Below, piece after piece: positions 27,026-44,237 of a stretch of 64,000 nucleotides of DNA. The number at the start of each line of letters is the position of its first letter. Position 1 is the stretch's first letter. The stretch comes from Variovorax sp. DXTD-1. GTDB taxonomy: Bacteria; Pseudomonadota; Gammaproteobacteria; Burkholderiales; Burkholderiaceae_C. The stretch is taken from contig NZ_RWKH01000014.1 in NCBI RefSeq assembly GCF_003984625.1, forward strand, positions 1-64,000. The letters are read 5' to 3'. The notes below the pieces were generated by a model that was given only the letters and a program-made list of their open reading frames with translations, had not been told where the DNA came from and did no database searches. The position numbers were made by a program, and so were the translations under genes.

Positions 27026-27946
27026 TCAACCGGCCCTCTTGGTACGTATCGCCTTCGACGCCCGCGAATTCGGTTCGCGCCCCAGCGCCTCGCTGATGTA
27101 CACGCCCGCGTCGATCAGCTTGTCCAGTTCGATGCCGGTCTCGATGCCCATGCCGTGCAGCATGTACACCACGTCTTCGGTCGCCACGTTGCCCGTCGCA
27201 CCCTTGGCGTAGGGGCAGCCGCCCAGCCCGGCGGAGGACGACTGGAAGTTCCAGACTCCCAGCTCCAGCGAGGCCAGCGTGTTGACCAGCGCCTGGCCAT
27301 AGGTGTCGTGGAAGTGGCCCGAGATGTGGTCCACGCCGAAATGCGCCAGCGTGGCCTCGATGGCAGCCCGCACCTTGCGCGGCGTGCCCACGCCGATGGT
27401 GTCGGCCACGTCCACGCGCTGCACGCCGATGTCCTTCATCAGCTTCGCCAGCATGCCCACGCGCTCGGGGGCAACCTCGCCTTCGTACGGGCAGCCCACC
27501 GTGCACGACATGGCGCCGCGCACGTCGATGCCCTTCTCGCGAGCCGCGGCCACCACCGGCGCAAAACGCTCGATGCTCTCGGCAATCGAGCAGTTGATGT
27601 TCTTCTGGCTGAAGGCCTCGCTCGCGGCGCCGAACACCACGATCTCGTCGGGCCACTCTTCGCGCGGCGCGGCAATGGCGGCCTCGAAGCCCTTCATATT
27701 GGGCGTGAGCACCGAGTAGCGCACGCCCGGTTTGCGCTTTATGCCATGCATCACCTCGGCGTTGTCGGCCATCTGCGGCACCCACTTGGGGCTCACGAAG
27801 CTCGTGACCTCGATCTCCTTCAGGCCGGCGTCCTGCAGGCGATGCACGAGCCCGATCTTGACTTCAGCCGAGACCGGCTGCTTCTCGTTCTGCAGTCCGT
27901 CGCGCGGACCGACGTCGACGATCTTGACCTTGGCGGGGAGTTTCAT
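27026..27946 (-). CDS. mvaB: hydroxymethylglutaryl-CoA lyase
   Basis: 306 aa TIM barrel. VDVGPRDGLQNE, SGHFHDTYGQAL (metal-binding His) and the glycine-rich loop GGCPYAKGATGN identify HMG-CoA lyase, which splits HMG-CoA to acetoacetate and acetyl-CoA. This is the last step of leucine breakdown, and no other copy lies with the liu cluster at 34-43 kb. The ATG at 27946 fits the family. A 148-base gap upstream contains a pair of direct repeats also found before the liuA gene, so it may have its own promoter inside the IclR-headed row. Confidence 0.94.
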   Translation of the reverse strand: MKLPAKVKIVDVGPRDGLQNEKQPVSAEVKIGLVHRLQDAGLKEIEVTSFVSPKWVPQMADNAEVMHGIKRKPGVRYSVLTPNMKGFEAAIAAPREEWPDEIVVFGAASEAFSQKNINCSIAESIERFAPVVAAAREKGIDVRGAMSCTVGCPYEGEVAPERVGMLAKLMKDIGVQRVDVADTIGVGTPRKVRAAIEATLAHFGVDHISGHFHDTYGQALVNTLASLELGVWNFQSSSAGLGGCPYAKGATGNVATEDVVYMLHGMGIETGIELDKLIDAGVYISEALGREPNSRASKAIRTKRAG

Positions 27947-28042
27947 GGCGTGTCTCTGGAGTTCGCAGGAAGAAGAAAAATAGGCCGTCCGTCGATTGTC
28001 GGCCACCTGCGTCCGCCGTGCTCGGCCGGGCTGTTGCGCGGG

Positions 28043-28079
28043 GTTGCAATGCCCGCCACCGGCGTTGCAAATCGCGCCA
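28043..28079 (-). promoter_or_regulatory. tandem 16-bp direct repeats, proposed AraC-type operator of mvaB
   Basis: GTTGCAATGCCCGCCA (28043-28058) and GTTGCAAATCGCGCCA (28064-28079) share 13 of 16 bases and start exactly 21 bases apart, two helical turns. The second differs by one base from the repeat at 42887-42902 before liuA/araC. The pair ends 96 bases before the mvaB ATG. AraC-family dimers typically bind such spaced direct repeats. Confidence 0.65.
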
Positions 28080-28094
28080 GCGCAGCAACATCGC

Positions 28095-29264
28095 TCAATA
28101 CGACTTGGGCAGGCCGAGCGCCTTTTCCGCGATGAAGTTCAGGATCATCTGCGGGCTCACCGGCGCAATGCGCGGAATGTAGCTCTCGCGCAGCAGCCGC
28201 TCGACATGGTATTCCTTCGCATAGCCCATGCCGCCCAATGTGAGGACGGCGTTCTGGCAGGCATCGTGCGCCGCTTCGGCCGCCAGGTACTTGGCGGCAT
28301 TGGCCTCGATGCCGCAGGGCTCGCCCGCGTCGTACAGCGTGGCGGCCTTGAACACCATCAGGTCGGCGGCCTCGAGGTTGGCCCAGGCGCGCGCGAGCGG
28401 ATGCGCCACGCCCTGGTTCTGGCCGATGGGCCGGCCGAACACGACGCGCTCCTGAGCGTACTGCGAGGCGATGCGCAATGCGGCGCGGCCAATGCCGATG
28501 GCCTCGGCCGCAATCAGGATGCGCTCGGGGTTGAGCCCGTGCAGGATGTACTCGAAGCCGCGGCCTTCCTCGCCGATGCGGTCTTCTTCCGGCACTTCGA
28601 GCCCGTCGATGAAGAGCATGTTCGAGTCGACCGCCGCGCGTCCGAGCTTGTGTATCTCGCGCACCTCGACCTTGCTGCGGTCGAGCGGCGTGTAGAACAG
28701 CGTGAGGCCTTGCGTGGGCTTCTTCACCTGGTCGACGGGCGTGGTGCGCGTGAGGATCAGCATGCGATCGGCCACCTGGGCGGTCGATATCCAGATCTTT
28801 CGGCCGTGCAGCAGATAGCTGCCGTTGGGCTGGCGCACCGCCTGCGTCTTGAGGCTGGTGGTGTCGAGCCCCGCGTCGGGCTCGGTCACGGCGAAGCAGG
28901 CCTTCTCGGTGCCGGCGATCAGCGGCGGCAAGAAGCGCTGGCGCTGCGCCTCGCTGCCGAACACCACCACGGGGTTGAGTCCGAAGATGTTCATGTGCAC
29001 GGACGACGCCCCCGACATGCCCGCACCCGACGCGCTGATGGCGCGCATCATCAGCGCGGCTTCGGTAATGCCGAGGCCCGCGCCGCCCTGCGCCTCGGGC
29101 ATGGCGATGCCGAGCCAACCGCTGTCGGCGACAGCGCGATGGAACTCGTGCGGGAACGCGGCCCGGTCGTCGTGGTCGCGCCAGTAGTCGGCGGGAAAGT
29201 CTTCGCAGAGGCGCTCGATGGCCGCCACCAGCGAGCGCTGGTCTTCGTTCAGGGAAAAGTTCAT
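28095..29264 (-). CDS. acyl-CoA dehydrogenase
   Basis: 389 aa flavoenzyme: CFAVTEPDAGLDTT, ISTAQVADRMLI and FGRPIGQNQG mark the acyl-CoA dehydrogenase fold. The usual C-terminal YEGT catalytic motif is replaced by IAPVSPQMI, while a Glu in LNPERILIAAEA sits where isovaleryl-CoA dehydrogenase keeps its base. It introduces a C2-C3 double bond in an acyl-CoA. ATG at 29264 overlaps the stop of the CoA-transferase gene (ATGA), which suggests that the transferase makes its substrate. The true acyl group is unknown. Confidence 0.9.
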   Translation of the reverse strand: MNFSLNEDQRSLVAAIERLCEDFPADYWRDHDDRAAFPHEFHRAVADSGWLGIAMPEAQGGAGLGITEAALMMRAISASGAGMSGASSVHMNIFGLNPVVVFGSEAQRQRFLPPLIAGTEKACFAVTEPDAGLDTTSLKTQAVRQPNGSYLLHGRKIWISTAQVADRMLILTRTTPVDQVKKPTQGLTLFYTPLDRSKVEVREIHKLGRAAVDSNMLFIDGLEVPEEDRIGEEGRGFEYILHGLNPERILIAAEAIGIGRAALRIASQYAQERVVFGRPIGQNQGVAHPLARAWANLEAADLMVFKAATLYDAGEPCGIEANAAKYLAAEAAHDACQNAVLTLGGMGYAKEYHVERLLRESYIPRIAPVSPQMILNFIAEKALGLPKSY

Positions 29265-30484
29265 TCGCTGTCCTTCGTGGGTTCCGGCTGCAGCGTGACG
29301 CCGCGCGCGAGCATCCGGTCGATCTCTTCGCTTGCATAGCCGGCTTCGCGCAGCAGCTCGACACTCTGTTCGCCGATGCGCGGCGCTGGCCGGCGAATGG
29401 CGGCGGGCGTGGCGCTGTAGCGGCCGACCGGCGCGAGCGTGCGGATGCGGCCCTCGCTCGGATGGTCGAGTTCCGGAAAGAAACCGACTGCGCGCAGGTG
29501 CGGGTCGTCCAGCAGGCTCTCGGTGCTGTGCAGGCGCGCGACCGGGATGTCGGCTGCTCCGAGCACCACCATCCATTCGTCGCTGCCACGCGTGGCCATC
29601 ACCTCGGCCACGAACGCGTAGACCGCACCGATATTTGCCGCGCGCGCCGTGTGCGTGCCGAACATCGGCGAGTCGCGCAGCTCGGGCCGGCCGATCACAT
29701 CGAAGAAGGCCTGCCAGTGCTTGTCGTTGTAGATCAGCACGCTCAGGTAGCCATCGGCCGTGGCGTAGGGCTTGCGGTGCGGCGCGAGCAGGCGCGCATA
29801 GCCGGTCGGGCCGAGCGGCGGCTCGAAGCTGTGGCCGCCCAGATGGTCGCCCATCACGAACTGCGAGAGCGCCTCGAACATCGGCACTTCCACCGCCTGG
29901 CCCTGGCCGGTGCGCTGCGCATGCAGCACGGCAGCCAGCAGCGCGATGGCTGCCTGCAGGCCCACGGCGCGGTCGGCCAGCGTGACCGGGGCGTAGCGTG
30001 GTGCGCCGCCGCTTTGCTGCGCAAAGAGCGAGGCAACGCCGGCCGCGCCCTGGATCAGGTCGTCGTACGCGGGCTTGCCGGCATACGGGCCTTCTTCGCC
30101 GTAGCCGAACGCGCCGAGATAGACGATCTTCGGATTGGCCGCAGCCACCGCTTCGTAGCCGAGCCCGAGCCGCGCCATCGCCTGCGGCCGTGTGTTGTAG
30201 ATGAGCGCATCGCAACCCGCCGCGAGCCGCAGGCAGGCCTCGCGGCCTTCGGGCTGCTTGAGGTCGAGCACGATCGAGCGCTTGTTGCGGTTGAGGTGCA
30301 GCGCCATCGCGCCCATGCCGGCGTGGCGCATCGGGCCGACCGCGCGCAGGTTGTCGCCTGAGGGCGGCTCGACCTTGACGATGTCCGCGCCCAGGTCGCC
30401 GAGCGTCTGCGTGGCGTACGGCCCCATCACCACCGCCGTGAGGTCGAGGATGCGGATGCCGTCGAGAGGTCCCGTGGTGTTCAT
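29261..30484 (-). CDS. CaiB/BaiF family (class III) CoA-transferase
   Basis: 407 aa. LTAVVMGPYATQTLGDLGADIVKVE and NRNKRSIVLDLK are the standard N-terminal blocks, and Asp in PAYDDLIQGAAG is the expected catalytic residue. It moves CoA between carboxylates through an enzyme-bound anhydride. It overlaps the dehydrogenase gene by four bases and follows a Bug receptor gene, so it likely activates an imported carboxylate. Substrate unknown. Confidence 0.92.
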   Translation of the reverse strand: MNTTGPLDGIRILDLTAVVMGPYATQTLGDLGADIVKVEPPSGDNLRAVGPMRHAGMGAMALHLNRNKRSIVLDLKQPEGREACLRLAAGCDALIYNTRPQAMARLGLGYEAVAAANPKIVYLGAFGYGEEGPYAGKPAYDDLIQGAAGVASLFAQQSGGAPRYAPVTLADRAVGLQAAIALLAAVLHAQRTGQGQAVEVPMFEALSQFVMGDHLGGHSFEPPLGPTGYARLLAPHRKPYATADGYLSVLIYNDKHWQAFFDVIGRPELRDSPMFGTHTARAANIGAVYAFVAEVMATRGSDEWMVVLGAADIPVARLHSTESLLDDPHLRAVGFFPELDHPSEGRIRTLAPVGRYSATPAAIRRPAPRIGEQSVELLREAGYASEEIDRMLARGVTLQPEPTKDSE

Positions 30485-30491
30485 GTCTTTG

Positions 30492-30592
30492 CTCCTTCCC
30501 CTTCCGGGGGAAGGTTGGGATGGGGGCAGGCAGAGCGCTCGATGGATGTGCCGCGTGCCCCCACCCCTGCCCTCTCCCAGCGGGGTAGGGAG
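30492..30592. repeat. dispersed GC-rich repeat, copy B
   Basis: About 101 bases between the Bug receptor and CoA-transferase genes. It starts GCTCCTTCCCC-TTCC-GGGGGAAGG, goes on TTGGGATGGGGGC, has a variable centre, and closes GTGCCCCCACCCCTGCCCT and CCCAGCGGGGTAGGGAG. The ends and the GGGGGC/GCCCCC arms can pair. It fills nearly the whole intergenic gap. Confidence 0.85.
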
Positions 30593-30605
30593 AAATACAG
30601 ATTGC

Positions 30606-31616
30606 TCATTCGGGTTGAATGCCGGCGGCCTGGATCAGCTTCTTCCACTTGCCCAACTCGGACACAGTGAACGCCCCCAACTCCTCCGGCGTGCTGCCGA
30701 ACGCATCGAAGCCCAGCTTCGCGACGCGTTCGCGGAACACCGCGCCGTTCGCCATCTCCGCCAGCGCCTTGTTGAGCTTCAGCACAATGTCGCGCGGCGT
30801 TCCGGCCGGCGCGAACACGCCGTTCCACGAGGTGATGTCGAAGCCCTTGAGCTCGGGCGTGTCGGCCAGCGGCGGCAGCTCCGGGAAGAGCTTGGTGCGC
30901 TCCTGCGTCGTGACCGCAATCGCGCGCATCTTGCCGGCCTTCACCGTGGCAAGCCCCGCGGCAAGGTCCACCACCATCATCGACACCTGCCCGCCGATCA
31001 GGTCGGCGATGGCGGGCGGCGTGCTCTTGTAGGGCACGTGCAGCATCGGCACGCCGCTCATGCGCGACAACGTGGCGCCGCTCACGATGCCGGTGCTGTT
31101 GCCGCTCGCATAGGTCAGCTTGCCCGGGTTGGCCCGACCCCAGGCCAGCAGCTCGGCCACGCTTTTCACCGGCAGGTCGTTGTTGACCACCAGCATGAAC
31201 GGCAGGTTGCCCATGCGGCTCACGGGCGCGAAGTCCTTCACCGGGTCATAGGGCAGCGACTTCATCAGGCTCGGGTTGGCCGAGTGCGTGGTGTTGGTCG
31301 TCATGAAGAGCGTGTAGCCGTCGGGCGGCGCCTTGGCCACGAACTCGGCGGCAATCACGCCGTTGGCGCCCGCGCGGTTGTCGACGATGACCGAGGTCTT
31401 CAGTGCCTCGCCCAGCATCTGCGCAGTGATGCGCGCCACCGCGTCGGTGCCGCTGCCGGCCGCGAAGGGCACGATCAGCTTGATGGGCTGCTTCGGATAG
31501 CCCTCTTGTGCAAGGGCCCACGGCACCGCGCCGGCCAGGCCCGCTGCGGCACTGATGGAAATGAAACGGCGGCGGCTTGCCACCGCGACTGTTTCTGTCG
31601 CGTTCTTCGTCTGCAT
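30606..31616 (-). CDS. Bug-type tripartite tricarboxylate transporter receptor
   Basis: 336 aa. The N-terminus has SRRRFIS followed by a hydrophobic stretch and WALAQEGYP, which could be a Tat signal rather than Sec. The mature part has VPFAAGSGTDAVAR, VDNRAGANG and GKLTYASGNS, as in Bug receptors. It probably delivers the carboxylate used by the CoA-transferase encoded downstream. No membrane subunits are adjacent. Confidence 0.88.
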   Translation of the reverse strand: MQTKNATETVAVASRRRFISISAAAGLAGAVPWALAQEGYPKQPIKLIVPFAAGSGTDAVARITAQMLGEALKTSVIVDNRAGANGVIAAEFVAKAPPDGYTLFMTTNTTHSANPSLMKSLPYDPVKDFAPVSRMGNLPFMLVVNNDLPVKSVAELLAWGRANPGKLTYASGNSTGIVSGATLSRMSGVPMLHVPYKSTPPAIADLIGGQVSMMVVDLAAGLATVKAGKMRAIAVTTQERTKLFPELPPLADTPELKGFDITSWNGVFAPAGTPRDIVLKLNKALAEMANGAVFRERVAKLGFDAFGSTPEELGAFTVSELGKWKKLIQAAGIQPE

Positions 31617-31642
31617 GGTTTTTGTCTCCGGGTGGTTGTCGT

Positions 31643-32026
31643 TCAGGGCCGGATCACGCGCTCCGGCGACTCTTCATACGGCGGGCTGTAGATGACCAGC
31701 ACGCGCACCGGCTCGTCGCTCACCACCGTGAAGGTGTGCATTGCATCTGCCGGAAAAAAGCAGCTGTCGCCGGGGTGCAGCTCCTGCCGTTGGCCGTCGA
31801 CCTCGGCGACCGCACGGCCTTCGAGCATGTAGCAGACCTGCTCGATGCCGGGGTGGGCGTGGGGCAGCGCGCCCTTGCCTTTCTGGATATGCCCCACCAG
31901 CACCTCGAGCTGCTTCGCGCCGACGGTCTCGGGGCCGATGAGCCGCTTGTTGAGCGTGCCGGTGTGGTTGGCCGGGTGGTAGCCGGCAATCTCGCTTTCG
32001 CGGACGAAGTAGCGTGGGGAGGTCAT
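31643..32026 (-). CDS. cupin domain protein
   Basis: 127 aa. One cupin barrel with LPHAHPGIEQVCYMLEGRAVAEVDG (metal His/His/Glu motif 1) and PGDSCFFPADAMHTF (motif 2). It may be a small metal enzyme or a sensor-type protein. Its ATG at 32026 lies seven bases after the IclR regulator stop. Exact function unknown. Confidence 0.85.
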   Translation of the reverse strand: MTSPRYFVRESEIAGYHPANHTGTLNKRLIGPETVGAKQLEVLVGHIQKGKGALPHAHPGIEQVCYMLEGRAVAEVDGQRQELHPGDSCFFPADAMHTFTVVSDEPVRVLVIYSPPYEESPERVIRP

Positions 32027-32033
32027 TGGTTTT

Positions 32034-32771
32034 TCAGCCTTTGTGTTCGATGGCCAGGCAGGCGGCGCGCAGCATGGCGGCCACGTCGTCGATGCGGGGC
32101 TCCAGCCGGTAGCGTGGGCCCGCCACCGAGATGGCGTAGGCCTCGCCGCCGATGCGCAGCGGCCATGCAAGGCCGACCAGATCGGGAATGCTTTCGCCGA
32201 GGTTGCCGTACCAGCCGCGTACGGGCGAGCGTTCGAGCTCCTGTTCGATGGCTTCGGCGGTGATCAGCGTGGCGTCGGTCAGCGGCGCCAGCCGGGTGGC
32301 TTCGAGCAGCTTGCGGCGCGCCTCGGGCGCGAGCGTGGACAGCAGCGCGCGGCCCATCGAGTTGGCATAGGCCGGGCGGGTTTCGCCCGACTCGGCGGAG
32401 TAGCGAATGCTCTGCGGCGCGCTCAGCACTTCGAGGTAGACGACCGTGTTCGGGTCGCGGAACCTGCCGAACAGCACGGTTTCGCGCGCGCCGTCGCGCA
32501 GCTCTTCGAGGGCGGGCCGCACGCGGTCGAGCACCGGGTCGTGCGCCGCGATGATCTGCGCCATGGCGAGCAGCCGGCCGGTCGGGTAGTAGCCCTGGCG
32601 GCGGCCGGTTTCGTACATGTAGCCCTGCTCTTCGAGCGTGCGGATGAGCCCGAGGCAGCTGGACACGGGCATTTCGAGCAGGCGCGCCATTTCGGACAGC
32701 GCCAGCGGCTGCTTCTCCCGGGCGAAGAGCTCGACGATCTCGATCACGCGAAAAGCAGTTTTCACAACCAT
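32034..32771 (-). CDS. IclR-family transcriptional regulator
   Basis: 245 aa. An N-terminal winged helix (LSEMARLLEMPVSSCLGLIRTLEEQGY) precedes the IclR effector domain (YANSMGRALLSTL, LPxxG region). IclR proteins sense small acids and control catabolic operons. As first gene of the row down to 25.6 kb it probably controls itself and the cupin, receptor, CoA-transferase and dehydrogenase genes. A partial palindrome lies eight bases upstream of its ATG. Confidence 0.9.
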   Translation of the reverse strand: MVVKTAFRVIEIVELFAREKQPLALSEMARLLEMPVSSCLGLIRTLEEQGYMYETGRRQGYYPTGRLLAMAQIIAAHDPVLDRVRPALEELRDGARETVLFGRFRDPNTVVYLEVLSAPQSIRYSAESGETRPAYANSMGRALLSTLAPEARRKLLEATRLAPLTDATLITAEAIEQELERSPVRGWYGNLGESIPDLVGLAWPLRIGGEAYAISVAGPRYRLEPRIDDVAAMLRAACLAIEHKG

Positions 32772-32869: not shown

Positions 32870-33790
32870 TCAGTAGCCCCGGACCGGGTCGACCACACCG
32901 CTGACCGGCAGGCCCTGCTCCATGGCCCGGATCTTTCCGGCGATCTGGGCGATGGACTCCTCGCGCAGCGTGCGCGCCGAGCCGTGCGGCGTCACCGTGA
33001 TCTTCGGATGGCGCCAGAAGGCGTGGTCGGCCGGCAGCGGCTCGACCTGGAACACGTCGAGCGTGGCGCCCGCCAGCTGGCCCGCATCGAGCATCGGGAT
33101 CAGGTCGTCTTCGACCAGGTGCGCGCCGCGCGCAATGCTGATGAGATAGCCGCCCGGCCGCAGCTTGCCGAGCGTGTTGCGGTTGAGAATGCCGCGCGTG
33201 GCATCGGTCAGCGGCAGCAGGTTGACCAGCACGCGTGTGGACGACAGGAACTCGTCGAACTGCGCCTCGCCGCTGAACACCTTCACGCCGTCGATGGCCT
33301 TGGGCGAACGGCTCCAGCCCAGCACCGGAAACTCGAACTGCGCCACGGCCTTGGCAACCCTCTCACCCAGCACGCCCAGGCCCATGATGCCGACCGGAAA
33401 ATCGCGCCGCAGCCGCGGCTTGCGGTAGCTCCAGCGTCCTTCGCGCGCATCGGCTTCATACACGTCGAATTCGCGGAAGTGCCGGATCAGCGTGTGGCAC
33501 ACGTACTCGGCCATCTGCACCGACATGCCGGCATCGTCGAGCCGCACGATGCGCGTCTGCGGCGGCACCTTCAGCTTGAGCAGCGCATCCACGCCCGCGC
33601 CGATGTTGAAGAGGCCATGGAGTTGGGGTTGTTCGTCGAGCAGTTGCTGCGACGGCGCCCACACCACGGCATGGTCGGCCTGGGCGGCACCCGGCTGCCA
33701 GGTCTCGATCTGCGCTCCGGGCAACTCGGCCTTGAGGCCTTCGATCCACGGGTCGGGGCGGTTGTCGGTGAGAGAGACGATGATTTTCAT
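32870..33790 (-). CDS. D-isomer-specific 2-hydroxyacid dehydrogenase (glyoxylate/hydroxypyruvate reductase A-like)
   Basis: 306 aa. GIMGLGVLGERVA is the NAD(P) site; the conserved ISIARGAHLVEDDL, a Glu in VEPLP and PHGSA (in place of PHxA) complete the catalytic set. It fits GhrA, which reduces glyoxylate and hydroxypyruvate with NADPH in the cytoplasm. It is a single gene, divergent from the small EthD-like gene. Confidence 0.88.
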   Translation of the reverse strand: MKIIVSLTDNRPDPWIEGLKAELPGAQIETWQPGAAQADHAVVWAPSQQLLDEQPQLHGLFNIGAGVDALLKLKVPPQTRIVRLDDAGMSVQMAEYVCHTLIRHFREFDVYEADAREGRWSYRKPRLRRDFPVGIMGLGVLGERVAKAVAQFEFPVLGWSRSPKAIDGVKVFSGEAQFDEFLSSTRVLVNLLPLTDATRGILNRNTLGKLRPGGYLISIARGAHLVEDDLIPMLDAGQLAGATLDVFQVEPLPADHAFWRHPKITVTPHGSARTLREESIAQIAGKIRAMEQGLPVSGVVDPVRGY

Positions 33791-34241: not shown

Positions 34242-36332
34242 TCAAGCCGCTGCCGCGGCCATTCGCAACAACTCGTCGCCTTCGGCCACCTGCTCGCCGG
34301 GGGAGAACATCAGCTCTTCCACGGTGCCGTCGGCCGGCGCGGCGATGGTGTGCTCCATCTTCATGGCCTCCATCACCGCAAGCGGCTGGCCGCGGCTGAC
34401 CTTGTCGCCCGCCTTGACCGCGAACGACACGACCTTGCCGGGCATCGGTGCAGTGAGCCGGCCGCCTTCGGCATGGGTGTCGCCGGCATGGGCCAGCCGG
34501 TCGATGGTAGTGATCTTCGTCGCGCCCTTCGAGGCGAACACATGGGCCGTCGCGCCGTCCAGATGCACGTCGAGAGTCTGCCGCGTGCCCGCGAACTCGA
34601 CTTCGAACTCGCCCGACGGGAACTGGCCCACGACCAGCGGGCCTTGCGCGCCCCCGGCTTCGAGCCAGAGGCTGCCGTCGCGCTTGTAGGTCAGCAAGGC
34701 CGCCTGCTCGGCGCCGCGAAACTCGAAGTCGAAGTGGCGCCGGTACTCGCCCATCGCGCGCCAGCCGTCCCGCCGCTCGAACGGATCGGGTGCGCCAGCC
34801 GGACGTTCGGTGATCAGCGTGCGGGTGATGGCGGCGGCAGCGGCCAGCGGCAGGCCCAGCGCCTCGCGGTCGAACAGCACGGCGCGTTCGCGCTCGATCA
34901 GCGCGGTGTCGAGGTTCGCCTTCGAGAACGACTCGGTCGCGAGAATGCCGCGCAGGAACTGCACGTTGGTCGAAACGCCCACGATCTGCACCTGCGCCAG
35001 CGCGGCATCGAGCCGCGCCAGCGCTTCGTCGCGCGTGCTGCCGTGCACGATGAGCTTGGCGATCATCGAGTCGTAGAACGGCGAGATCTCTCCGCCCTCT
35101 CGCACGCCGTCGTCGATGCGCACGCGGCTGCGCTGGAAAGCGGTGGCCTGCGGCTTTCGGTACACGCGCAGCGTGCCGGTGGCGGGCAGAAAGTTGTTGT
35201 CGGGGTTCTCGGCGCAAATGCGCGCTTCGATCGCGTGGCCATGGACCTGCAGCTCCTGCTGCTTGGCCGGCAGCGGCTCGCCCGAGGCCACGCGCAATTG
35301 CCACTCCACCAGATCGAGGCCGGTGATGGCCTCGGTCACCGGGTGCTCGACTTGCAGGCGCGTGTTCATCTCCATGAAGAAGAAGTTCATCTCGGGTTGG
35401 CCTGCCCCCACGCTCGGCACTGACGTGTCCTCGCTGCCCCCCGTGGGGGCGCTCGCTTGCTTGGGGCGGCCCGGCGCGGCGCTCGGCTCACGCTGCTCGA
35501 CGATGAACTCGACCGTGCCCGCGCCCACGTAGTTCACGGCGCGCGCCGCAGCCACGGCGGCCTCGCCCATCTGCTTGCGCATCGCCTCGGTCATGCCGGG
35601 GGCTGGCGCTTCCTCGAGCACCTTCTGGTGCCGGCGCTGCACCGAGCAGTCACGCTCGAACAGGTAGACGTAGTTGCCGTGCGTGTCGCCAAACACCTGG
35701 ATCTCGATGTGCCGCGGGCGTTGCACATACTTTTCGATCAGCACCGCATCGTCGCCGAAGCTGTTGATCGCCTCGCGCTGGCACGAAGCGAGCGCCGCCG
35801 CAAAGTCTTCCGCCTTGTCGACCGCGCGCATGCCCTTGCCGCCGCCGCCCGCGCTGGCCTTGATGAGCACCGGGTAGCCGATGCGGTCGGCCTCGCGCTG
35901 CAGCAGCGCCGGCTCCTGATCATGGCCGTGGTAGCCGGGCACGAGCGGCACGCCGGCCTTTTCCATCAGCTGCTTCGACTCCGCCTTCAGGCCCATCGCC
36001 TTGATTGCCGAGGGCGGCGGGCCGATGAAGACAAGCCCTGCATCAGCGCAGGCCTGCGCGAATTCTTCGTTCTCGCTCAGGAAGCCGTAGCCGGGGTGCA
36101 CCGCTTCGGCGCCCGTGGCCTTGGCGGCCTCGAGGATCTTCTGCCAGCGCAGGTAGCTGTCTTTTGGCGCGCTGCCGCCCAGGTGCACCGACTCGTCGCA
36201 GGCGCGCACGTGGTTGGCATGCGCGTCGGCATCGGAGTACACGGCCACGGTACGGATCGCCATGCGACGGGCAGTAGCCGCCACGCGGCACGCGATCTCG
36301 CCACGGTTGGCGATCAGGATCTTCTTAAACAT
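34242..36332 (-). CDS. liuD: methylcrotonyl-CoA carboxylase alpha (biotin) subunit, with in-frame insertion
   Basis: 696 aa. Biotin carboxylase (ATP-grasp: KASAGGGGKGMR, MEMNTRLQVEHPVTE) is followed by a linker and a C-terminal biotinyl domain with EAMKMEH. Together with the beta subunit encoded upstream it carboxylates 3-methylcrotonyl-CoA in leucine breakdown. Residues about 283-315, just before the MEMNTRLQVEHP motif, are a Pro/Ser/Ala/Gly-rich segment not expected in this enzyme and encoded by repeat-like DNA. Its start overlaps the DUF4126 gene by eight bases. The substrate is assigned from context. Confidence 0.92.
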   Translation of the reverse strand: MFKKILIANRGEIACRVAATARRMAIRTVAVYSDADAHANHVRACDESVHLGGSAPKDSYLRWQKILEAAKATGAEAVHPGYGFLSENEEFAQACADAGLVFIGPPPSAIKAMGLKAESKQLMEKAGVPLVPGYHGHDQEPALLQREADRIGYPVLIKASAGGGGKGMRAVDKAEDFAAALASCQREAINSFGDDAVLIEKYVQRPRHIEIQVFGDTHGNYVYLFERDCSVQRRHQKVLEEAPAPGMTEAMRKQMGEAAVAAARAVNYVGAGTVEFIVEQREPSAAPGRPKQASAPTGGSEDTSVPSVGAGQPEMNFFFMEMNTRLQVEHPVTEAITGLDLVEWQLRVASGEPLPAKQQELQVHGHAIEARICAENPDNNFLPATGTLRVYRKPQATAFQRSRVRIDDGVREGGEISPFYDSMIAKLIVHGSTRDEALARLDAALAQVQIVGVSTNVQFLRGILATESFSKANLDTALIERERAVLFDREALGLPLAAAAAITRTLITERPAGAPDPFERRDGWRAMGEYRRHFDFEFRGAEQAALLTYKRDGSLWLEAGGAQGPLVVGQFPSGEFEVEFAGTRQTLDVHLDGATAHVFASKGATKITTIDRLAHAGDTHAEGGRLTAPMPGKVVSFAVKAGDKVSRGQPLAVMEAMKMEHTIAAPADGTVEELMFSPGEQVAEGDELLRMAAAAA
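35388..35490. repeat. repeat-like insertion in the biotin carboxylase gene
   Basis: About 100 bases containing GCTGCCCCCCGTGGGGGCGC, then GCTTGCTTGGGGCGGCCCGG and CGCGGCGCTCGG. The CCCCC-GTG-GGGGG type hairpin and the following GC-rich tract look like a dispersed Comamonadaceae repeat. It interrupts the region coding the conserved active-site block and keeps the frame. Only one copy lies in this window, so the repeat status is partly from memory. Confidence 0.6.
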
Positions 36333-36996
36333 TCGGAGTGTCTCCCGGAGGATTCTTTTTCAGTTGAAATGCAGGCGTGACGCCCGGATCGGGTCGGCCG
36401 CTGAAGATGCGGGCCACGCGGCTGAACAATGCCTTCAGAAAGCGCCAGCTCTTGCGGATGAGCCACACGCTGAGCACAAGCACCAGCACAAAAATCACCA
36501 GGAAGACCAGCGGATGCGCCACCGCCAGCCACAGGCCGGCCGGCACCATGCTGTCTTCGACCAGCGAAGCGCCCACATTGGAAAACGGCTCGGGCGATGT
36601 ATTGATGGCCGCGCGCGTGGTGGCCTTGGCCGCATGTGCGGTGGCCGCAAAGCCGCCGCCGAGCAGCGCCGCAACCACGGCCATGGCACCATGGTCGGCG
36701 CCGAACACGCTGGCCGCGAGTGCCGCGCCGGCCGGAATGCGAATGGCGGTGTGCACCACATCCCAGAGCGAATCAAGACCGGGGATCTTGTCGGCGAAGA
36801 ACTCGATGACCACCATGAAGCCGCTCGCCGCAATGACGACCGGATGCGCGAGCATCTGCAGCCCGCCGGGCAGCGGCACCCAACCGAAGTAGCCGGCCAG
36901 CCCGGTGAGCAGCACGACCAGGTACAGCCGCACGCCGCTGGCCCAGCCGATAGCGGCGGCCAGGGCAAGCAGTTGGGGCATGTCGAGCGCGTTCAT
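36325..36996 (-). CDS. DUF4126 membrane protein
   Basis: 223 aa with about five hydrophobic segments (GVRLYLVVLLTGLAGYF, HPLVFLVIFVLVLVLSVWLI among them) and the DUF4126 feature SGVRLY near the start. Inner-membrane location. It lies inside the liu row between hydratase and carboxylase alpha genes, overlapping the latter by eight bases. Role in leucine catabolism is unknown; transport or a structural role is possible. Confidence 0.82.
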   Translation of the reverse strand: MNALDMPQLLALAAAIGWASGVRLYLVVLLTGLAGYFGWVPLPGGLQMLAHPVVIAASGFMVVIEFFADKIPGLDSLWDVVHTAIRIPAGAALAASVFGADHGAMAVVAALLGGGFAATAHAAKATTRAAINTSPEPFSNVGASLVEDSMVPAGLWLAVAHPLVFLVIFVLVLVLSVWLIRKSWRFLKALFSRVARIFSGRPDPGVTPAFQLKKNPPGDTPNV

Positions 36997-37005
36997 GGCG
37001 TGCGC

Positions 37006-37797
37006 TCAGCGGCCGAGCCAGGACGGCTTGCGTTTCTGCAGGAAGGCCTGCACGCCTTCACGGCCTTCGTCGCTTGCGCGGATGTCGGCGATGCCTTCGA
37101 CCGTCTTGGCGATCAGCGCGTCGTCGATCTCGCGCCCGTCTACGTCGGCGATCAGCTGCTTGCAGGCGCGCACCGCGGCAGGGCTGGCACCGGTGAGCGC
37201 CTTCACGAGCTCGTCGACCTTGGCATCGAGCGCGTCGGCGCCCGCAACCACTTCGTGCACAAAGCCGATGCGATGTGCCTCGGCGGCGGTGAAGCGCTCG
37301 GCCGTCAGAAAGTAGCGCTGCGATGCGCGCGTGCCCATGGCGCGCAGCACATACGGGCTGATGGTCGCGGGCACGAGGCCGATCTTCACTTCGCTCAGGC
37401 AGTACCAGGCGGTATCCACGCTCACCGCCATATCGCAGGCCGCGACCAGCCCCATGCCGCCCGCATACACATCGCCCTGCACGCGCGCGATGGTGGGCTT
37501 GGGGCATTCGGCAATGGTGCGCAGCATGGTGGCCAGCTTGCCCGCGTCGGCGATGTTCTCGTCGCGCGTGTAGTCGGCCATGCGGCGCATCCAGTTGAGA
37601 TTCGCGCCGGCGCAAAAAGCAGGGCCGTTTGCGCCGAGAACGATGGCCTTGACCTGCGGCTGGGTGCCGGCTTCGGTGAAGGCCTGCGTCAGTTCGGCGA
37701 TGACGATGTCGTCGAAGGCGTTGCGTGCGTCGGGCTGGTCTAGCCAGATGCGCGCTACTGTGTCCTGGACTTCCAGTTTCAGTTTGGTGAAGGTCAT
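37006..37797 (-). CDS. liuC: methylglutaconyl-CoA hydratase (enoyl-CoA hydratase family)
   Basis: 263 aa crotonase fold: GPAFCAGANLNWMRRMADY forms the oxyanion region and GDVYAGGMGLVAACDMAV the second active-site block. In the liu set it hydrates 3-methylglutaconyl-CoA to HMG-CoA, the substrate of the lyase at 27.0 kb. The ATG at 37797 matches family starts; an upstream extension would be read from the palindromic element. Assignment of substrate is from context. Confidence 0.88.
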   Translation of the reverse strand: MTFTKLKLEVQDTVARIWLDQPDARNAFDDIVIAELTQAFTEAGTQPQVKAIVLGANGPAFCAGANLNWMRRMADYTRDENIADAGKLATMLRTIAECPKPTIARVQGDVYAGGMGLVAACDMAVSVDTAWYCLSEVKIGLVPATISPYVLRAMGTRASQRYFLTAERFTAAEAHRIGFVHEVVAGADALDAKVDELVKALTGASPAAVRACKQLIADVDGREIDDALIAKTVEGIADIRASDEGREGVQAFLQKRKPSWLGR

Positions 37798-37839
37798 GTC
37801 ATTCGTCCGTGGTGCTGATGCGTAGTTCGCAGTGCTTTC

Positions 37840-38092
37840 GGGGCGTGTGCAAAGGCCACCGGGTACTCCCCTCCGCGAATGTCCCCCGGGGCTGCGCCCC
37901 TCCTCCTTTATTTCGCTGCGTGGAGCACCCGATGCCCTGTGCACTGGGGCACGCTCGTGGTGCACCGCTGATCAACGACTGCTCCTTACAACGCACCCGC
38001 TGGCGGGGTGCCTTGCGCAGCGAAATAAAGGAGGAGGCCGCAGGCCGGGGGACATTCGCGGAGAAAGGTACCCCGTCGGCGGGTGAGCGCCC
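37840..38092. repeat. 250-bp palindromic element, copy 1 (MITE-like)
   Basis: This fills most of the 354-base gap between liuC and liuB. The left arm runs GGGTACTCCCCTCCGCGAAT, GTCCCCC, a small GGGGC-TGC-GCCCC hairpin, then TCCTCCTTTATTTCGCTGCG. The right arm is its inverted copy: CGCAGCGAAATAAAGGAGGA, GGGGGACATTCGCGGAG and GGTACCCC. The centre has GAGCACCCGATGCCCTGTGCAC and CGCTGATCAACGAC in split form. A second copy is at 43986. No reading frame of interest. Confidence 0.85.
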
Positions 38093-38151: not shown

Positions 38152-41456
<3,305 letters not shown>

Positions 41457-41607: not shown

Positions 41608-42780
41608 CTAGGCCGTTTCCGCGAACAGCTCACGCCCGATCAACATCCTTCGGATCTCGCTCGTCCCCGCGCCAATCTCGTACAGCTTGGCATCGCGCCA
41701 CAGCCGCTCGACCGGAAACTCCTTGGTGTAGCCCATGCCGCCCAGCGCCTGGATCGCCTCGCCGGCCATCCAGGTCGCCTTTTCGGCCGAATAGAGAATG
41801 GCGCCGGCCGCGTCCTTGCGGAAGGTGCGCGCATGGTCGTTGCGGTCGCAGGCCTTGCCCACGGCGTACACATAGGCGCGCGTGGCCTGCCAGGTCGAAT
41901 ACATGTCCGCGAGCTTGCCCTGCATCAGCTGAAACTCGCCGATGCTCTGGCCGAACTGCTTGCGCTCGTGAATGAAGGGCAGCACCGCATCCATGCACGC
42001 GGCCATGATGCCCAGCGGGCCGCCCGAGAGCACGGCACGCTCGTAGTCGAGGCCGCTCATCAGCACCTTCGCGCCCATGCCTTCGCCGCCGAGCACGTTC
42101 TCTTCCGGCACTTCGCAGTTGTCGAAGAACAGCGGATAGGTGTTGGAGCCGCGCATGCCGAGCTTGTCGAGCTTGCTGCCGGCCGAAAAGCCCGTGAAGC
42201 TCTTCTCGACGATGAAGGCCGTCATGCCGCGCGCGCCCATCTCGGGTTCGGTCTTGGCGTAGATCACCAGCGTGTCGGCGTCGCCGCCATTGGTGATCCA
42301 CATCTTGCCGCCGTTGAGCACGTAGTAGCCGTTCTTCTTCTCGGCCTTGAGCTTCATGCTCACCACGTCGGAGCCGGCGTTGGGCTCGCTCATGGCCAGC
42401 GCGCCGACATGCTCGCCGCTCACCAGCTTGGGCAGGTACTTCTTCTTCTGCGCGTCGCTGCCGTTGCGGTGGATCTGGTTCACGCACAGGTTGGAGTGCG
42501 CGCCGTACGAGAGGCCTACCGAAGCCGAGGCGCGCGAGACTTCTTCCATGGCCACGATGTGCGCCAGGTAGCCCAGCTCGGTGCCGCCGAATTCTTCCTT
42601 CACGGTCATGCCGTGCAGGCCGAGTTCGCCGAGCTTTTGCCACAGGTCGTGCGGAAACAGGTTGTCGCGGTCGATGTCGGCGGCGCGCGGCGCGATTTCG
42701 TTCGCGGCAAAGTCCTGGATGGCGCTGCGCAGCGAGTCGATGTCCTCGCCCAGGTCGAAGTTCAGGCCGGGATCGTGCAT
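41608..42780 (-). CDS. liuA: isovaleryl-CoA dehydrogenase
   Basis: 390 aa. [22 protein letters not shown] and [17 protein letters not shown] are the flavin-domain blocks. The catalytic Glu lies in [17 protein letters not shown], the position used by isovaleryl-CoA dehydrogenase, while the C-terminal site reads [12 protein letters not shown]. It oxidises isovaleryl-CoA to 3-methylcrotonyl-CoA. It is the first liu gene, divergent from an AraC-type regulator, with tandem operators between them. GAGGAG precedes the ATG at 42780. Confidence 0.95.
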
Positions 42781-42865
42781 ATGTCTTGTCTCCTCTGAGG
42801 GGTCGGCGCGCAGAGCTACCCACGCGGATTGGCGCTTGGAAGAAACACAGCTTACGCCTCGCCGC

Positions 42866-42902
42866 GCCGCAATTGGCGCCACAATGGTTGCAAATTGCGC
42901 CA
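42866..42902. promoter_or_regulatory. tandem 16-bp direct repeats, proposed AraC-type operator in the liuA/araC intergenic region
   Basis: GCCGCAATTGGCGCCA (42866-42881) and GTTGCAAATTGCGCCA (42887-42902) start 21 bases apart and agree at 12 of 16 positions. The second is 15/16 identical to the repeat at 28064 before mvaB. The pair lies 85 bases before the liuA ATG and 18 bases before the araC ATG, so activation of liuA and autorepression would fit. Proposed from sequence only. Confidence 0.65.
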
Positions 42903-42920: not shown

Positions 42921-43949
42921 ATGACCTCGCCCGCCTTCCTGAAACCCGCCCGAGCGGTCACGCCCATGGCCTTTGTGAGAGCCATCGTGAAGGGCTATGA
43001 GCGCTACGGCATCGACCCGGCGGAGGCCCTGAAAGCGGCACAGATCACGCCGCGCGAACTGGCGCGGCCGGGCGCGCGGGTCACTGCGGCGCAGTTCGAG
43101 GCATTGTCGGAACACGCCATGCAGGAGCTGGACGACGAGGCGCTGGGCTGGTTCTCGCGGCGCCTGCCCTGGGGCAGCTACGGCATGCTGTGCCGCGCAT
43201 CGCTGAGCTCGCCCGACCTGGGCGTGGCCATCAAGCGCTGGTGCCGCCACCACCGGTTGCTGACCGAGGACATCGGTCTTGCGCTCGAGGTGGCGGGTGG
43301 CGTGGCCACGCTGCGCATTACCGAGAAGCGCCCGCTCGACGAGGCGTTTCGCGAGTTCTGCCTGGTGACCAGCCTGCGCTTCATGCATGGCTACATGTGC
43401 TGGGCCATCGACTCGCGCATTTCGCTGCGCAACGCCACCTTTCCGTTCGCGGCGCCGCCGCACCGAGACGCCTACGCGCCGATGTTCACGCCAGAGGTAC
43501 GCTTCGAAGCGCCGCAGGCCACCATCAGCTTCGACGAGCGATATCTCGCCCTGCCCCTGCAGCGTGACGAGCGAGCACTGCGCGCCATGCTCAAGCGTGC
43601 GCTGCCGCTCACCATCCTTCAGTACCGTCGCGACCGCCTGCTGGGGCAGCGGGTGCGCGAGCTGCTGCGTTCGCGCGCCGGCGAAGCCACCACGGCGGAG
43701 GCGCTGGCCACGCTGCTGAACGTATCGGGCCGCACGCTGCACCGGCAACTGCACGAAGAAGGGACATCGCTGCAGGTGCTGAAGAACGAAGTACGCCACG
43801 AGATGGCGGTGGAGCAGCTGCGCCGGACCAATCGGCCGATCAAGCAAGTGGCGCTGTCGGTGGGGTTTCGCAACGAGAAGAGTTTTTCGCGTGCGTTCCT
43901 GCAGTGGACCGGGCACGCGCCGCGTGACTTTCGGGCGCTGGGGTTGTAG
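42921..43949 (+). CDS. AraC-family transcriptional regulator, probable liu regulator
   Basis: 342 aa. An N-terminal AraC-binding-type (OruR/ArgR-like) domain is followed by a C-terminal double [27 protein letters not shown] and [32 protein letters not shown]. Divergent orientation to liuA and the paired repeats between the genes suggest that it controls the liu row. The ATG at 42921 is chosen; earlier ATG codons would place the operators inside the gene. Effector unknown, perhaps a leucine intermediate. Confidence 0.9.
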
Positions 43950-43985
43950 TTTATTTTTGCTGCTGTTCGGGGCGCTGCTGTTCAG

Positions 43986-44237
43986 GGCTTGTGCAGAGGC
44001 CACCGGGTACTCCCCTCCGCGAATGTCCCCCGCCTTCGGCTCCTCCTTTATTTCGCTGCGCGGAGCACCCGATGCCCTGTGCACATGGACGCGCTGCTGG
44101 TGTTCCGCTGATCAACGACCACTCTGTGCAACGCACCCGCTGGCGGGGTGCCTTGCGCAGCGAAATAAAGGAGGAGGGGCGCAGCCCCGGGGGACATTCG
44201 CGGAGTAAGGTACCCCGTCGGCGGGTGCGCCGCCCCG
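43986..44237. repeat. 250-bp palindromic element, copy 2 (MITE-like)
   Basis: This fills the gap between the AraC gene and the thioredoxin-like gene. It follows copy 1 (37840) over its whole length with the same outer GGCCACCGGGTACTCCCC and GGTACCCCGTCGGCGGGTG ends and the same TTTATTTCGCTGCG/CGCAGCGAAATAAA arms. The small hairpin heads differ: CGCCTTCGGC here on the left, GGGGC-GCA-GCCCC on the right. Compensating changes inside stems suggest the folded form matters. Confidence 0.85.

Follow-up and report, generated by a model that had tools for sequence, protein, structure and literature searches.

For the genes of leucine breakdown two types of regulator have been described, LiuR, a MerR-type protein with 103 regulons, and LiuQ, a TetR-type protein with 14 regulons, and the types named for both in a sequence-only reading of the DNA analyzed here agree with that account; the main text of the same paper, in which the word 'AraC' is absent, assigns to both regulons the pathway genes that are also treated below and places LiuQ at the betaproteobacterial liu row as well (PMC5343134). 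The locus described here differs from both in that the protein encoded beside the liu genes belongs to another family, AraC, and the site consists of direct repeats. LiuR and LiuQ are repressors, and the binding sites of TetR, MerR and IclR proteins are usually inverted repeats. In Escherichia coli, araI1-I2 consists of a strong distal and a weaker proximal direct half-site at a promoter without a -35 element, and the N-terminal domain of E. coli AraC is the cupin-like PF02311. Control of a branched-chain amino acid pathway by an AraC family protein is also represented by MmsR of Pseudomonas, the activator of mmsAB in valine breakdown, which concerns a different branch and is set beside the present case by description only. 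An AraC-type liu regulator was not found in the open papers searched, most subscription journals lying outside the search, and such a regulator and its regulon are apparently undescribed. In the best reading of the sequence, the AraC-type regulator takes the place of the MerR-type LiuR and the TetR-type LiuQ.

The liu row, the AraC protein and two repeat pairs

The window, a stretch of 64,000 nucleotides from Variovorax sp. DXTD-1, contains the following genes:

42921..43949, plus strand: araC, AraC-family regulator P0001 of 342 aa, with Arabinose_bd (PF12625) and HTH_18
41608..42780, minus strand: liuA, acyl-CoA dehydrogenase, by context isovaleryl-CoA dehydrogenase
39774..41456, minus strand: acyl-CoA ligase (AMP-forming), NF009233 above cut-off
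38152..39777, minus strand: liuB, carboxyltransferase, by context methylcrotonyl-CoA carboxylase beta
37006..37965, minus strand: liuC, enoyl-CoA hydratase family, homology beginning near ORF residue 57
36325..36996, minus strand: DUF4126 protein, retained in the liu row of most relatives read
34242..36332, minus strand: liuD, biotin carboxylase, methylcrotonyl-CoA carboxylase alpha, with BT_MCC_alpha and biotinyl domains
32870..33790, minus strand: 2-hydroxyacid dehydrogenase, last gene of the liu row
32034-32771: IclR gene, between the liu row and mvaB
27026..27946, minus strand: mvaB, hydroxymethylglutaryl-CoA lyase, NF004283 above cut-off

The name isovaleryl-CoA dehydrogenase rests on context because none of the NCBIfam equivalogs attains its cut-off with liuA. 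The liu row and mvaB are separated by a block of IclR, TctC, CoA transferase III and acyl-CoA dehydrogenase genes (window 28095-32771), which occurs in many Variovorax read, is missing from others, and resembles a cassette that was inserted together with a regulator of its own. Past araC, window positions 43960-44200 are GC-rich, with words such as 'gcgaaataaaggagga' recurring in inverse sense, and perhaps represent a mobile or repetitive element.

P0001 has the composition of an AraC/XylS protein, with an N-terminal effector/dimer domain (PF12625 Arabinose_bd, E 2.3e-55) and, as in the activators of that family, a C-terminal DNA-binding domain with two HTH motifs (PF12833 at E 1.8e-18, above the cut-off; PF00165 just under it with 25.4 bits versus 26.6); a MerR or TetR DNA-binding domain, as in LiuR and LiuQ, was not found. 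P0001 differs from E. coli AraC in the PF12625 domain at the N-terminus, and the half-site sequence and the 27-nt step to the promoter described below are its own. The NCBIfam equivalogs QhpR, GliR and CypR remained below their cut-offs (152 vs 250, 128 vs 570 and 77 vs 500 bits). The structure model (mean pLDDT 79.5, pTM 0.58) matched the fold of the GadX DNA-binding domain (TMt 0.85), and the fold search returned CdpR and VirS with no hint of the effector. CdpR (PDB 5chh) and VirS (8rcx, 8rcw) are the nearest solved structures by sequence as well as by fold, with 22% and 17% identity that lies mostly in the DNA-binding domain; no functional relation to these proteins is known. Across 20 aligned relatives, RTLHRQL and N-[ED]-KSF-x-RAF, the recognition segments, vary at one position only. 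The nearest named relative belongs to Variovorax beijingensis (98% identity), and no close paralogue was found in the genome of the window, where the next best protein shows 26% identity. With the araC ATG used (window 42921-42968), just 18 bp separate the gene from the operator; distant relatives become homologous near residue 10, and translation may in fact begin at the ATG of codon 16.

Two 16-base repeats with starts 21 bases apart had been noticed in the liuA/araC gap and again in the gap before mvaB, and an exact string check found them in both pairs:

42887..42902, minus strand, 5' end at 42902: putative liu operator, distal repeat, GTTGCAAATTGCGCCA in the window and TGGCGCAATTTGCAAC in the liu sense
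42866..42881, minus strand: putative liu operator, proximal repeat, GCCGCAATTGGCGCCA in the window and TGGCGCCAATTGCGGC in the liu sense
28064..28079, minus strand: putative mvaB operator, distal repeat, GTTGCAAATCGCGCCA in the window and TGGCGCGATTTGCAAC in the mvaB sense, found by profile R1
28043..28058, minus strand: putative mvaB operator, proximal repeat, GTTGCAATGCCCGCCA in the window and TGGCGGGCATTGCAAC in the mvaB sense

Both pairs are oriented alike and lie, as had been claimed, 85 bases before the ATG of liuA and 96 bases before that of mvaB. The downstream copies of the two gaps indeed differ by a single base (identity 15/16), the upstream copies agree in 11/16 positions, and the copies inside one pair in 12/16 and 13/16.

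The genome of 5,254,730 bases matches the pair pattern GCAAN4CGCCAN8GCAAN4CGCCA exactly at 2 places only, the liu and mvaB sites, versus ~0.0004 expected from base composition alone, and at 1 place with one mismatch. A longer pattern with 2 mismatches allowed gave 2 matches in the window versus a mean of 0.09 in 100 shuffles; both patterns were composed after the sites were known, and the independent test is that with profile R1. The short pattern with up to 3 mismatches matched the whole genome 55 times, in no excess over the 53 matches of the reversed control, so that loose pattern matching is meaningless and was dropped. With at most one mismatch it matched in 60 of 299 family genomes; since true liu sites were mixed with many unrelated matches, it was replaced by profile searches.

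Conservation of the site and co-occurrence with AraC

Of 56 relatives of the AraC protein, 54 had a readable upstream region, which together with the window gave 55 gaps; over 57 columns these represent 42 distinct sequences. Conservation of the repeats in related genomes, on which the proposal of a regulatory site depended, was borne out in these gaps, as the distal repeat is kept in 55/55, its core TGGC..ATTTGCAACC (TGGC..ATYTGCAACC-like) being nearly invariant. In the liu sense the site reads TGGC[GA]-S-R-ATTTGCAACC-N4-TGGCG. In the first copy, TGGC, AT and TGCAACC do not vary among the 42 distinct gaps, whereas the second copy is far less conserved: its TGGC box is kept, the remainder less so, and in six Pseudacidovorax the box is TGTC. 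The set extends to Xenophilus, Pseudacidovorax, Methylibium, Zoogloea, Polaromonas and Rhodoferax, where the flanks have diverged. In 54 of the 55 gaps (the exception is L072) TANNCT follows 27 nt past the start of the second TGGC, and in the window it is represented by

42849..42854, minus strand: putative liuA -10 element TAAGCT, 27 nt downstream of the first base of the proximal TGGC (inferred promoter)

The pair points towards liuA and mvaB, and the 27-nt step between the second TGGC box and the liu -10 is fixed.

A second profile, R2, built from 20 liu and mvaB sites including those of the window, was applied to 299 genomes of the family with a threshold of E<=0.005; AraC was called in these genomes at E<=1e-85 and liuB at E<=1e-200. 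R2 revealed 96 sites in 87 genomes; AraC was detected in 141 of the 299 genomes, and 83 carry both. AraC is present in 83/87 genomes with a site versus 58/212 without (Fisher p 5e-30, the genomes not being independent). Seventy-one of the 96 sites are located 12-281 bp before the AraC gene, all 71 in the same orientation, pointing away from it, so that the arrangement directly at araC, found in 71 of 299 family genomes, is not peculiar to the strain of the window. Its recurrence in many relatives looks like that of a real genetic switch. When 61 of the 96 sites were read, 54 (in 50 genomes) had liuA, the ligase gene, liuB or mvaB downstream, and for the other 7 the sequence retrieved contained no liu gene. 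G069 and G175, whose liu rows are split, have a second site before the separate liuB operon, with TACCCT at 27 nt.

The co-occurrence is incomplete in both directions. At E<=0.005 and with the strict filters used, 58 of the 141 AraC genomes yielded no site, which may reflect drift. Four genomes have a site and no AraC at the threshold (G061, G166, G224, G232); the sites of G061 and G224 are weak, and the genome of G166 is 78% complete. In the complete genome G232 the site before the liu row (L266 / L227) has a second box (TGGAGCC) and a -10 (TAGGCC) that both deviate from the rule, as if it were decaying. liuB was found in 272/299 genomes, which, with AraC in 141, leaves at least 131 liu-bearing genomes without AraC at the threshold. 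A sample of 14 of these included 4 with a divergently oriented TetR gene next to liu, in agreement with LiuQ. One of the 14 (G217) encodes an AraC relative of 55% identity that escaped the threshold, and 141 is therefore a lower bound.

The AraC protein could be a bystander, the sites being read by LiuR, LiuQ, IclR or a second AraC protein. The IclR gene between the liu row and mvaB and the TetR genes at the liu rows of some relatives lacking this AraC would fit such a regulator. We nevertheless regard it as highly unlikely: the four TetR-bearing liu rows belong to genomes without a detected site, the sites are direct repeats and not the inverted repeats usual for TetR, MerR and IclR proteins, and the genome of the window offers no close AraC paralogue as another binder. 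That the site travels with AraC in nearly all site-bearing genomes argues for the neighboring AraC protein as the cognate regulator, the candidate named from the sequence at the outset.

The mvaB site and further targets

The presence of the site before mvaB could be judged with a profile, R1, that was built from 17 sites of araC/liu gaps, including the liu site of the window, and contained zero mvaB sites. In the genome of the window R1 recognized the liu site with E 1.6e-9 and the mvaB site with E 1.8e-4; the next match had E 1.16, the mvaB site being the sole other significant match. Among the 150 of 2562 candidates scored, R1 disclosed no targets beyond liu and mvaB at E<=1 in this genome.

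Orthologues of mvaB with at least 75% identity were available from 37 of 40 genomes (one was split in pieces); G331, G332 and G333, with no orthologue above 61% identity, were omitted. The site is present in 24 of the 37, in Variovorax, Xenophilus-type genomes and a Xylophilus MAG, with diverged flanks. Conservation of the mvaB site therefore holds in part: it is not universal, as 13/37 orthologues lack it, among them the three closest to mvaB of the window (G310, G311, G315). In these three relatives a 97-aa ORF on the same strand, acylphosphatase-like by eye, lies between the 2-hydroxyacid dehydrogenase gene and mvaB (L163:11099-11392, L164, L165).

The site is retained mainly where mvaB is detached from the liu row, namely in 22/28 relatives with interrupted or unlinked mvaB versus 2/9 with contiguous mvaB (Fisher p 0.004; the 37 relatives are not independent). 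There are exceptions both ways: six detached mvaB genes lack the site (G324, G326, G328, G336, G337, G338) and two contiguous ones have it (G301, G318). An earlier sorting had given 24/32 versus 0/4 (p 0.008); it was revised because the 97-aa ORF fills the gap in G310 and because G318 and G301 were counted as contiguous, and in four Xenophilus-type genomes the ~1-kb interval before mvaB was classed by length alone. In 7 of the 13 site-less relatives mvaB runs on from the 2-hydroxyacid dehydrogenase gene or liuD.

The distance to the promoter differs from that at liu. At the 27-nt position before mvaB the window has GCCCGG and no -10 element; the candidate lies further downstream:

27995..28000, minus strand: putative mvaB -10 element GACAAT, 58 nt downstream of the first base of the proximal TGGC

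GACAAT is found 58 nt from the second box in the window and at 16 of 18 Variovorax mvaB sites, and at 59 nt in the other 2. Compared with 27 nt this is 31 nt further, or about three helical turns. The Xenophilus-type and Xylophilus genomes checked keep the 27-nt step at mvaB (TAGGCT, GACAAT).

These data bear on the question of whether the liuA/araC site is real and the mvaB copy a chance or relic match without function. The 13 orthologues without the site, very close ones included, and the six that lack it although mvaB stands apart from the liu row speak for a chance or relic match. Its detection by a model that had seen no mvaB site, its retention with diverged flanks in three genera, its recurrence before mvaB in a further genus (G020, TACCCT at 27 nt) and the constant spacing to GACAAT make this quite unlikely. 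The claim that mvaB is joined to the liu regulon by a common operator is supported by the same untrained detection and by the 24 orthologues, which suggest that the joint control is real.

In the 40 relatives three further sites had E<1e-3. One (L154:2671-2707, E 3.2e-5) lies in Variovorax paradoxus ISL-81 (G306) ~50 bp before a bioB-like gene, with TATCCT at 27 nt. Since methylcrotonyl-CoA carboxylase requires biotin, this site possibly ties the regulon to biotin supply; it was found in 1 of the 40 genomes only. The other two (L155:2446-2482 in G311; L156 in G310) are of the same type and precede a GST-like gene, named by eye, with TATGCT at 27 nt. Nearby is the gene of an AraC paralogue of 60% identity whose recognition helices are nearly the same, a predicted sister regulator. 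The case shows this type of site to be a property of the AraC subfamily, and in genomes with both paralogues the two could share sites; the genome of the window has only one. Weaker matches begin at E 0.009, and L157-L159, among those listed in part, lie inside or beside unrelated ORFs.

Promoter geometry and proposed action of the regulator

Across the family, TANNNT occurs 27 nt from the second box in 46 of the 54 sites with a liu gene or mvaB downstream, and in at most 2/54 at each of the remaining offsets between 15 and 74. At the -35 position of all 46 of these promoters the best match to TTGACA comprises only 1-3 of 6 bases, which indicates the need for an activator. If TANNNT is the -10 element (-12 to -7), the distal copy would extend from ~-60 to -45 and the proximal copy from -39 to -24, with TGGC on the place of the -35; in an alternative phasing, TTTGCAACC-N4-TGGCG at ~-51 to -35 would be the promoter-side unit. 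Direct repeats ~21 bp apart beside the -35 region are present, as in AraC-type operators. The plan resembles that of AraC at araI1-I2 and of class II AraC/XylS sites, with direct half-sites about two helical turns apart, a strong distal and a weaker proximal half-site, and no -35, and for this reason activation is the first choice.

With good confidence we propose the AraC/PF12625 protein as an activator of liu and mvaB that acts from a class II-like operator and probably also controls its own gene. Two AraC protomers would occupy adjacent positions, separated by two helical turns and in the same orientation, upstream of liuA and of mvaB. The upstream copy would serve as the strong half-site, and the downstream copy, mainly through its TGGC box, would lie over the place of the -35. 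Like E. coli AraC at araI1-I2, the effector-bound protein would then recruit RNA polymerase to the liu promoter, which has a -10 (TAAGCT) but lacks a -35. The effector is probably leucine or an early intermediate (isovalerate, isovaleryl-CoA), which is a guess. mvaB, detached from the liu row, would have its own copy of the operator, by which the last step of leucine breakdown would stay under the same control.

Towards araC, TTGCAA of the distal repeat has [CG]ANACT 16-18 nt further on in 18/54 sites, compared with 0-2/54 in 11 other spacing ranges, the pattern having been picked after inspection of the site list. A consensus-like -10 (4 of 6 bases to TATAAT) was seen on this side in only 1/54 sites, so that autoregulation rests on the weaker [CG]ANACT pattern. 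From the position of this pattern, araC probably overlaps its own operator. Since the site covers the araC start, the AraC protein would probably limit its own synthesis.

The same geometry could also serve repression, AraC covering -60 to -24 at liu and mvaB and being released by the effector. The repeats extend into the -35 region, to ~-24 if TAAGCT is the -10, and reach further downstream than the position of araI2; moreover, the known regulators of the pathway, LiuR and LiuQ, are repressors. Yet the liu promoters, lacking a -35, point to the need for an activator, and at 16 of the 18 Variovorax mvaB promoters the -10 is 58 nt away from the site, which would thus leave the promoter uncovered. 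Repression is therefore considered unlikely, and activation remains the preferred reading.

For the family as a whole a wider proposal can be made, to which we give about an even chance. A dedicated AraC-type leucine/isovalerate activator, acting from a direct-repeat operator 27 nt from a promoter that consists of a -10 only, would have taken over the liu regulon in about half of a large betaproteobacterial family (AraC in 141/299 genomes, liuB in 272), the others using TetR or other regulators. A copy of the operator would follow mvaB or liuB where these are detached, in some cases at 58 instead of 27 nt, a shift of three helical turns, and the regulon could reach beyond the pathway, for example to biotin synthase. 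The regulators of leucine breakdown, LiuR and LiuQ, are a textbook case of non-orthologous replacement, to which an AraC-type regulator would add a third. The operator, the promoter geometry and the targets deduced from sequence would close a gap for a sizeable group of environmental bacteria, and many nameless genes annotated as 'AraC family' would gain a testable role. The natural series of promoters, with 27 versus 58 nt, may tell how far from the polymerase an AraC-type activator can stand.
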